Shown here one piece after another: positions 61,635-63,647 of a DNA stretch of 64,000 nucleotides. Source of the DNA: Nocardiopsis algeriensis (lineage in GTDB: Bacteria > Actinomycetota > Actinomycetes > Streptosporangiales > Streptosporangiaceae); the NCBI RefSeq assembly GCF_014203695.1, contig NZ_JACHJO010000002.1:335893-399892 (forward strand), given 5' to 3'. Within the stretch, counting starts at the first letter, position 1. Every line of letters begins with the position of its first letter. Under the pieces are notes generated by a model. It made no database searches. It had not been told where the DNA came from and saw nothing but the letters and a program-made list of their open reading frames with translations. The translations under genes were made by a program, and so were the position numbers.

Positions 61635-62228
61635 GTGCACCAGTTTAGTGCTGCGCTTGTGAGCCGTACCCTCGGTACGCTCCTGGCGCTGATCCTCCCG
61701 TCCCGCGGCCGCCACTGCGGTTCCGGTCTCCTCTCCCGTCGCCGCAGGTCGACGCGGGTCCGCCGCTATGTGGCCGCCCCCGCCCCGGCGGCCGCTCCGC
61801 GACACACCCCCGAGCCTCCCCGGCCCCGGCCCCGTCCGGCCGAGCCCCGTCGGCTGCTGAGCGCCGACGACGTGGCGCTGGTGCGGCCCTACTACGAGGC
61901 CCACGAAAAGCACGTGGCCCGCATGCGCGCTGCCTTCGCCGCTGACACCCAGCCGAAGCAGGCGCCCCAGCCGTCTCGACTCCCGCAAAAGCCCCAGGCG
62001 CCCCAGCTGCCCGAGCCGCGCATCCCCGAGGGCGACCTGCTCGCCGGCGAAACCATCCCCCTCCCCGAGCCTGTATCTCTGCCGCTGTCGGTGCCTGGCC
62101 CTGCGCCCGTACCTGCGCGGGGCCGTCACCACCGCCTGGACGAGGCCGAGCTGGACCGTGAACTGGCCCGGCTCACCCGCATGTGGCACACCCAGCGGCA
62201 GAACCTCCAGATGGGGGTGCCCGCATGA
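61635..62228 (+). CDS. Arg/Pro-rich protein coupled to a HATPase gene, unknown function
   Basis: 197 residues, GTG start (uncertain). A short hydrophobic stretch (LGTLLALILPSRGRHC) is followed by a basic segment (SRRRRSTRVRRYVAA), a Pro-rich region (about 50-75), a helical block LLSADDVALVRPYYEAHEKHVARMRAAF, another Pro-rich linker and a C-terminal helix DEAELDRELARLTRMWHTQRQ. I recognise it only as one of the small proteins encoded ahead of anti-sigma-like ATPases in actinomycetes. The stop overlaps the next start (ATGA), so the two are coupled. Confidence 0.6.
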   Translation: MHQFSAALVSRTLGTLLALILPSRGRHCGSGLLSRRRRSTRVRRYVAAPAPAAAPRHTPEPPRPRPRPAEPRRLLSADDVALVRPYYEAHEKHVARMRAAFAADTQPKQAPQPSRLPQKPQAPQLPEPRIPEGDLLAGETIPLPEPVSLPLSVPGPAPVPARGRHHRLDEAELDRELARLTRMWHTQRQNLQMGVPA

Positions 62229-62707
62229 GCGTGCAGCGCGCCTTCTGGGAACACCGCACCTACCCCGGTGACCTGTCCCAGCTCAAGCAGGTCCGGAAAG
62301 ACCTGGCCACCGACCTGACCGGCTTCCCCGACGAAGCCGTCCAGACTCTGGTGCTGTGTGCCAGTGAGCTGTTCGCCAACGCCTGCAAGTACACCGCCTC
62401 CGGCCAGAAAGACGGCCAGGTTCTCCGCACCCTGTGCCTGCGTCGCGGACGCCTGCTGCGCCTGGGCTTCACCGACGACGGAGGCAGCGGCCGCATCCCG
62501 CAGATCCCGACCGAGCGCACCGCCACCGAGTGGGACGAGGCCGAGGGCCAGCGAGGCCTCCTCATGGTCCAGGCACTCTCCGTCGCCTGGGGATATGACC
62601 GCACCTGCCCCTGGACCGACACCGGAACCCACACCTGGGCCCTGGTCCCCCTCACCGACGGCACCACACCCCCACCGCACCTGAAGCCCTACATCTTCAC
62701 CCGCTGA
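62225..62707 (+). CDS. ATP-binding protein, SpoIIAB/RsbW-like (HATPase_c_2)
   Basis: 160 residues from ATG 62225. GHKL fold: VRKDLATDLTGFPDEAVQTLVLCASELFANACKYTASG (N-box), LRLGFTDDGGSGRIP (G1 box with DDGG), EAEGQRGLLMVQALSVAWGYD (G2-like) and HTWALVPL. No sensor or phosphoacceptor histidine, so it belongs with anti-sigma or orphan serine-kinase-like regulators common in streptomycetes and relatives. The partner sigma or anti-anti-sigma protein is not adjacent. Confidence 0.88.
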   Translation: MSVQRAFWEHRTYPGDLSQLKQVRKDLATDLTGFPDEAVQTLVLCASELFANACKYTASGQKDGQVLRTLCLRRGRLLRLGFTDDGGSGRIPQIPTERTATEWDEAEGQRGLLMVQALSVAWGYDRTCPWTDTGTHTWALVPLTDGTTPPPHLKPYIFTR

Positions 62708-62767: not shown

Positions 62768-62850
62768 GGGGGCTTCTCGGAAGACCGAGGAGCCCCCTCC
62801 TCCACACCCAGAAAAACCCGCACTCCCTTTTCTCGGCTGCGCCCTATCCC

Positions 62851-62935
62851 CCGTGATCTTGTACCCAGCACCAACCTCACCCCCTTTTCTACTTCCCAGT
62901 ACCCAGCGAAAGTGTCCGCAAGTACAAGATCACGG
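62851..62935. repeat. palindromic element, copy 1
   Basis: Arms CCGTGATCTTGTAC (62851-62864) and GTACAAGATCACGG (62922-62935), 14 bp perfect. The loop ends with CAGCGAAAGTGTCCGCA, shared with copy 2. Most divergent of the three copies at its outer ends. Confidence 0.85.
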
Positions 62936-63085
62936 CAAGAAAGCCTCTGACCAGAGGGAAAGACCGAATTCCGGCCAAGGCAAGGAAGGCCCCGAACCGA
63001 AGCAGTCAGGAGCGGACCTGAGACCCTTGAGGCCCCTGGGGTCTCGACCCGACTGGGAAGTCGGCGCTTTCTCTCTTGGCTGTGT

Positions 63086-63187
63086 CTTATTTCCCGTGAT
63101 CTTGTACCTAGCGTCAACCTCACCCCACCCTGCCACCCTCCCTCATACAGCGAAAGTGACCGCAGGTACAAGATCACGGGAAATAAG
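63086..63187. repeat. palindromic element, copy 2 (24-bp perfect arms)
   Basis: The outermost arms at 63086-63109 and 63164-63187 are perfect inverted repeats of 24 bp, with a 54-nt loop. The core is CCCGTGATCTTGTACC / GGTACAAGATCACGGG. Sequence just inside each arm (TAGCGTCAACCT; CAGCGAAAGTGACCGC) is also conserved among copies. Confidence 0.88.
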
Positions 63188-63320
63188 GAGGCTGGCCAGA
63201 GTGGTGAGGCTGATTTCCGGCTGGGATGAGAGAAGGGACCAAATCGAGTCGACCAGGAGGCGGACCGAAGGCCTTGGCTCGACCAGAAAACCCGCGCCCC
63301 CTTTCTCAGCTACACCCTAT

Positions 63321-63413
63321 TTCCCGTGATCTTGTACCTAGCGCCAACTTCGTCCTGTCTTGTTGGTGTCCCGGTATTCAGTGAAAGTGACCGTGGATAC
63401 AAGATCACGGGAA
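63321..63413. repeat. palindromic element, copy 3
   Basis: Arms TTCCCGTGATCTTGTA (63321-63336) and TACAAGATCACGGGAA (63398-63413), 16 bp perfect. Left-arm starts of copies 1, 2 and 3 are about 242 and 230 bp apart. Confidence 0.85.
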
Positions 63414-63464
63414 GAAAGGGCGTTGGCCGGGGTGGGGCGACCGGAGGCCTTCGGCCACGCTCCG

Positions 63465-63546
63465 CCTGTGTCCGTACCCGCACCTGTGTCCGTACCCGTT
63501 CCCGCGCTCGCACCTGTGCCTGTTCCCGCGCTCGCACCTGTGCCTG
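63465..63546. repeat. minisatellite of 18-bp and 24-bp units
   Basis: CCTGTGTCCGTACCCG recurs with an 18-bp period (63465, 63483), then a 24-bp unit starting TTCCCGCGCTCGCACC repeats exactly at 63499-63522 and 63523-63546. All periods are multiples of three, giving a Val-Pro-Ala/Ser reading frame, but no start or ribosome-binding site supports a gene. Confidence 0.8.
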
Positions 63547-63647
63547 TTCCCACTCGGGCCACCGCGGAGGCGAGACCAGGGTCGAGGAGGTCGGGCGACA
63601 GGGCGGTCACGTACCCGAGGTCGGCTGTCGGCACCGCAGGGCCGGTA

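Follow-up and report, generated by a model that had tools for sequence, protein, structure and literature searches.

Three palindromic units in the genome of Nocardiopsis algeriensis are probably the hairpin cores of MITE-type mobile elements, which would be small, non-coding and non-autonomous, moved by a transposase acting in trans, and multiplied further by copying of a gene cassette. The units lie in the window (the whole 64-kb stretch of DNA that was analysed), where a sequence-only reading first picked them out and named a MITE-like element among its possible explanations. That explanation is supported by the dispersed copies, by sites that differ by insertion between species, and by a 5-bp target duplication that is clean at one site. 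The family is dispersed, has a characteristic core length and tails, forms arrays, is copied together with a gene cassette, and differs by insertion between species at a few sites. It works most like a MITE; because the ends of the window copies are undefined and no enzyme was found, neither the definition of a MITE nor that of a REP suits it completely.

The element would be some 130–240 bp long, with outer tails enclosing the palindromic core. A transposase acting in trans, probably by cut-and-paste, would insert it at short target sequences (for example CTAAG, CTGA and CTAG), apparently with a preference for places at or just after stop codons, and insertion would duplicate about 4–5 bp of the target, as one clean site illustrates. 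In N. algeriensis, the element may have settled behind a HATPase gene pair, duplicated head-to-tail to give up to three units, and then spread, gene pair and units together as a single cassette, to seven places. Any effect on the host is expected to be modest at most, as a 3' hairpin on upstream transcripts. The family provides a genus-wide set of small mobile repeats whose insertion habit, hairpin core and tails are separable, and its tandem arrays, copied with a gene pair, show how a repeat can join a gene cassette.

The array in the window and its cassette

The perfect arms described for the three units are borne out by direct reading and by a repeat search (Table 1), and the conserved inner segments are present on reading. 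The units also lie where they were said to lie, between the HATPase pair and map: they are 3' of a gene pair whose second member is a HATPase_c_2 gene (PF13581), and 5' of an M24 peptidase gene (PF00557; ‘map’). The palindromes are the centres of larger direct repeats, which form an 82-nt and a 60-nt family with spacings of 243, 230 and 244, 231. Compared with 200 dinucleotide shuffles, all three units fold markedly better (z −6.6, −7.5 and −6.1 for units 1, 2 and 3), and they are the sole matches in the window, at E ≤ 1, to a covariance model of the family. No Rfam model reaches its gathering score in the window.

Table 1. Features of the palindrome array and its gene cassette (window coordinates).
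Feature	Position	Strand	Details
Cassette gene 1, 197 aa	61635..62228	+	No Pfam or NCBIfam family
HATPase_c_2 (anti-sigma-like) gene, cassette gene 2	62183..62707	+	PF13581, E 4.4e-11; start codon uncertain
13-bp G+C-rich hairpin	62768..62797	+	Between HATPase gene and array; read by eye
Leader, ~45 nt	62805..62850	+	Resembles leaders of the family's first units in this genome; flank comparison; boundary approximate
Palindromic unit 1	62851..62935	+	85 nt; arms 62851-62864 and 62922-62935, 14 bp perfect; model match 33-34 bits
Spacer, units 1-2	62936..63085	+	Resembles spacers in arrays at other loci
Palindromic unit 2	63086..63187	+	102 nt; arms 63086-63109 and 63164-63187, 24 bp perfect
Unit 2 core	63094-63179	+	Covariance-model match 46-49 bits
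Spacer, units 2-3	63188..63320	+	Repeat search and flank comparison
Palindromic unit 3	63321..63413	+	93 nt; arms 63321-63336 and 63398-63413, 16 bp perfect
Unit 3 core	63324-63410	+	Covariance-model match 36-37 bits
Tail of last unit	63414..63470	+	Type-B right flank; boundary approximate
Units per cassette locus			L009 2, L010 3, L012 1, L013 3, L014 (window) 3, L018 3, L019 3

Across the family, the core takes forms that differ by lineage: type A (GATCTTGTACTTATAGC), type B (GATCTTGTACCTGTGGTCA), type C (GATCTTGCTCCCAGCG; present in G011, G019 and N. algeriensis) and a Nocardiopsaceae form (GATCTTGTAGCTGTCGACAC). These four forms are of equal length and have matched arms. The type-B right flank that makes up the tail of the window array also occurs beside single copies elsewhere in the genome. 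Short imperfect tandem repeats resembling CCTGTGTCCGTACCC occupy window positions 63464-63551, 3' of the last unit, and similar tracts, by reading, come after some other type-B tails.

Seven loci in N. algeriensis consist of the gene pair followed by units, and together these hold 18 of the 32 units extracted from the genome. Over the pair and the array, the six other cassettes are 76–82% identical in DNA sequence to the one in the window, so the cassette has been copied, or kept alike, as a whole. A sequence like the G+C-rich hairpin precedes the array at all six, on reading of their flanks. Of the 40 genus genomes, 28 (N. algeriensis among them) have a match to cassette gene 1, with 34–61% identity in the relatives. 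The genes that surround the window cassette are far apart in the relatives that have both on one contig (G001, G005, G010 and G020), and consequently no empty site can be defined for this locus. At four of the seven cassettes, a type-C hairpin lies downstream of the type-B array (L013:1574-1636, L019:4041-4102, L009:2940-3002 and L018:3407-3470); there it is located at the end of another reading frame that is shared too, has a length of about 307 aa in L019 and belongs to no Pfam family.

Copies, extent and insertion sites of the element

The sequence-only reading had proposed that an arm search of the genome and of databases would reveal whether the units belong to a wider family, and many copies were found, in this genome and in others. 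The 14-base arm CCCGTGATCTTGTA has 35 exact matches in the 4.81-Mb N. algeriensis genome (0 for the reversed control), to which one-mismatch and BLAST searches add more. Units of one type number 32; these come from 31 fetched loci with 39 arm pairs, seven of which were dropped as overlapping artefacts (two) or as shorter or other palindromes (five: L017, L020 twice, L034 and L038). The covariance model adds a few more diverged units, for example at L022. A longer palindrome at L017:2268-2352 carries GATCTTG motifs twice per arm and is type-B-like outside and type-C-like inside.

In the Genome Taxonomy Database (GTDB) collection, 44 stretches match a pattern of two 11-base arms with 33–63 bases between them, and 41 of these are exactly 59 nt long over the arms. 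The carriers are named Nocardiopsis species, a Glycomyces fuscus record, a Nocardiopsaceae bacterium and Microbispora rosea. The record, Glycomyces fuscus TRM 49117, shares the coordinates of G004, which is placed in Nocardiopsis, and its name looks wrong. By the strict pattern, 10 of the 40 genus genomes hold copies (47, 35, 26, 12, 9, 8, 6, 5, 2 and 1; control 0), counts that are too low, since the model detects diverged copies in stretches of G005, whose strict score is 0. The zero reflects divergence of the G005 arms and does not mean absence. The core measures 63 nt in most copies of the other genomes, and 77–106 nt in most copies of N. algeriensis.

The palindrome is only part of what is conserved. 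Among the N. algeriensis copies, conservation fades ~35–45 nt to the left of the arm, and pairs of copies are alike on the right to ~+190 from the arm start; these limits give an element of ~230 nt, near the array period. That period is 217–246 nt (286 in L015) and so is about the length of the element. L011 and L025 have two units each, at 246 and 230 nt, which by reading are inverted. The palindrome is internal in the copies of N. alborubida and its kin, whose left and right tails, by reading, are conserved; the inverted outer ends read in the N. alborubida copies are of more than one kind. Target duplications are therefore not to be sought at the ends of the palindromic units, where the sequence-only reading had suggested looking for them. 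Outer ends vary between copies and species, and those of the window copies are not set by any empty site.

Almost all distinct 55-nt cores (55 of 56, nearly all type A) lie outside called genes, the calls being made by a GC-frame heuristic that, at laxer settings, puts 2 of 44 elements within a called gene. Gene ends within 400 bp of the cores are mainly 3' ends (61 of 89; p 0.0006), and where both neighbours are called, convergent pairs number 17, in-line pairs 19 and divergent pairs 2. In nine cases, exactly 52 bp separate the stop codon from the core. Two reading frames adjacent to elements, at L052 477-1592 (G016) and L030 3023-3433 (G000), have similar C-terminal ends; the former lies between two copies of the element and encodes a protein that matches no Pfam or NCBIfam family.

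Insertion is evident at a few sites. At L080, the sequence CTAAG occurs once in G005 and on both sides of the insert in N. alborubida, the difference being 201 bases; the insertion there is clean, and its target duplication is 5 bp long. At L116, the element is absent from eight relatives (G005, G024, G019, G017, G002, G027, G011 and G066), in which 43–76 bases separate the aligned flanks versus 180 with the element; the site is probably empty in G014 too, and G001 and G004 carry other, longer sequence there. Imperfect duplications flank the element at L116 (CTGAG/CTGGG) and at L134 (CTAG/CTTG, versus TTAG). Clean duplication is thus confined to one of the 18 sites compared and imperfect duplication to two, with 16 of the sites taken from N. 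alborubida and two from G. fuscus, all matched to G005, a close relative, and one of them (L112) perhaps to a paralogue.

By reading, the type-A core is missing from G005 at all 18 sites, and insertion is not the whole story. Core loss happens too, for at three sites (L082, L131 and L234) G005 keeps the tail without the core. A diverged hairpin occupies the place of the type-A core in G005 at L235, and at several sites the relative has unrelated sequence. At L083, the right tail is shared by G019, and the core beside it there is of type C. Loss and replacement of the core thus occur alongside the insertions seen at a few sites. Nor is every insertion recent, since L114 and L128 are one site, filled in two species. 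Where N. alborubida has an element, G004 (L140) and G019 (L157 and L159) have a different small repeat, with GGGAGTGTTC near one end and ACACGRCCTA near the other.

Pairing of the arms and its explanations

From the perfect arms of copies that differ from one another, the sequence-only reading had concluded that pairing is selected or that one arm converts the other. Among the 32 N. algeriensis copies this inference fails: over 33 arm positions mean pairing is 0.746, versus 0.751 with shuffled partners, and 901 of 1000 shuffles are as high, so there is no covariation. Between lineages, and only there, the idea finds support. In 20 representatives, 83.8% of cells are paired versus 72.1% when shuffled (34–43% in slid controls), a percentage inflated by the choice of representatives, which was ours and for some rested on their being palindromic; related rows are also counted repeatedly. 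Both sides have changed in 19 of 28 pairs (13 of 500 shuffles as high), and the covariation score is 0.394 versus 0.205 (0 of 500 as high). Pair types are no more numerous than in shuffles (44 versus 42.7; 202 of 500 as high). An earlier set of 15 representatives gives the same picture. The outer arms do not vary among the 41 copies that have the 59-nt form (37 of them type A); there, positions 15, 19, 21 and 24 pair above shuffles (5, 1, 1 and 0 of 1000 as high), and positions 25-26 below (0.27 versus 0.47 and 0.39 versus 0.55).

These patterns can be read in several ways. It is quite possible, if short of an even chance, that the hairpin has no function of its own, and that the paired changes arise when replication switches template and copies one arm onto the other. 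Template switching is a documented mechanism (PMC8794818, PMC8604942) that can produce paired changes without selection (PMC8794818, in part), and by it the inside of the hairpin should become inverted as well. Core halves of both types are indeed found on either side of the tails. GGT-type halves tend to be joined to the other type (8, 11, 15 and 3 among 37 copies, with core-half orientation assigned by us from the tail; Fisher p 0.017). The mismatches at the inner positions 25-26, which most copies retain unrepaired, count against this account. The paired changes between lineages are explained equally well by template switching and by selection. The account covers pairing only and is compatible with a mobile element. 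If, instead, the units were a structured RNA or an mRNA 3' element, selected for its hairpin and spread with genes rather than by transposition, then the kept core length, the matched changes between lineages, the four well-paired positions and the excess of adjoining gene 3' ends would all follow. We think this unlikely: the N. algeriensis copies do not covary, positions 25-26 pair poorly, pair types are not in excess, the covariance model scores both strands about equally, and the insertion differences point to mobility.

A putative operator or binding site for a nucleoid protein would account for the five pairs, out of 28, that are invariant across the 20 representatives; the outer arm contains four of these (columns 5, 7, 8 and 11). 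Between lineages, however, little of the core sequence stays the same, two genomes each have one copy in which even GATC has become GGTC in both arms, and by the strict pattern the distribution is patchy; we regard such a site as very improbable. A variant of the mobile-element reading, which we consider rather unlikely, is that the machinery recognizes the hairpin and not the outer ends. The element would then move as a folded strand through an enzyme other than a Y1 transposase, drift in the specificity of that enzyme would produce the core dialects of the lineages, and the mismatch at 25-26 would mark strand or orientation. With the matched-arm dialects, it could be cleanly tested which of three causes maintains the hairpins in repeats: selection, the mobilizing enzyme, or template switching alone.

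Known repeats and candidate enzymes

A literature search (open-licence papers, top-ranked matches only) found no description of such repeats in Nocardiopsis. Bacterial MITEs such as RUP and Correia/NEMIS, as described in parts of PMC2229807 and PMC10969869, are likewise short, non-coding, dispersed and intergenic, and the inverted outer ends read in the N. alborubida copies and the short target duplication at one site would be MITE-like as well. Unlike MITEs, the Nocardiopsis element has no parent insertion sequence that a search with the core arms could find, is best conserved internally rather than at its termini, and has a GC content of 0.52–0.58, whereas MITEs are typically A+T-rich (same sources, in part). 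YPAL/RU-2 of Yersinia is similar in being 168 bp long with internal inverted repeats, in not being A+T-rich, and in generating target duplications, although its duplications range from 3 to 26 bp and the likeness is one of description, not sequence (PMC2229807, in part). The BrickBuilt MITE of Porphyromonas gingivalis also comprises a leader, tandem units and a tail, and is always intergenic; its tandem unit is 23 nt, compared with the 217–246-nt unit, complete with hairpin, of Nocardiopsis (PMC4596501, in part).

REPs and REPINs, the standard comparison for dispersed, intergenic, hairpin-forming repeats, are defined as palindromes of 20–40 bp with one end tagged by GTAG or CGTC and are associated with RAYT transposases (PMC3733652, in part). 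The Nocardiopsis family resembles them in its palindromy, high copy number, intergenic position and very stable fold. Its arms read CCGTGATC..., however, without either tag, and its units are larger (63–106 nt). Matches to Y1_Tnp (PF01797) occur in 13 of the 40 genus genomes and in three of the ten carriers (G001, as fragments, G002 and G067). The other seven carriers have none (G000, G029, G004, G017, G024, G016 and G027); they include N. algeriensis itself and the three richest carriers, with G029 and G004 holding the most copies. Target duplication is not expected of folded-strand transposition by Y1 enzymes, and one clean duplication was seen. We rejected a Y1 (RAYT) transposase as the mover; an element of the REP/REPIN kind, moved by such an enzyme as a folded single strand, is contradicted for the main carriers and seems very improbable.

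Other sources of movement for the preferred, MITE-type element were sought with equal lack of success. The search with core arms found no transposase with matching ends and no mobilizing enzyme. In five genomes, no gene lies between facing exact arms, though a search of this kind misses parents with another inner sequence; a 1.6-kb candidate for an autonomous element flanked by facing arms, in N. halotolerans, proved to be two separate elements. Among 20 fetched stretches with lone or widely spaced arms, 19 contain arm pairs 47–49 bases apart, and one (L123) contains a lone arm. Phages and plasmids gave short matches only (E ≥ 2; 32 phage and 9 plasmid records), viral contigs gave no match to the pattern, and such an origin was set aside. 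Decayed, C-terminal remnants of ISAs1-like transposases lie directly upstream of three type-B units, on the same strand (L037, L015 and L016; E 2.6e-5, 0.002 and 0.03), and beside no other units. The lone ISAs1 gene above the family cut-off has no family arm nearby (≤1 mismatch), which led us to reject an ISAs1-type parent. Duplications of 4–5 bp are ill-suited to the ISAs1 family; remnants and units perhaps lie side by side as both gather in the same places. IS701 may have a ‘YTAR’ target. Its duplications are of 4 bp according to the available part of PMC2266710, in which the word ‘YTAR’ has 0 occurrences. As a guess, an enzyme of the IS701 sort would suit both the length of the duplications and the CTAR-like targets of the Nocardiopsis element.
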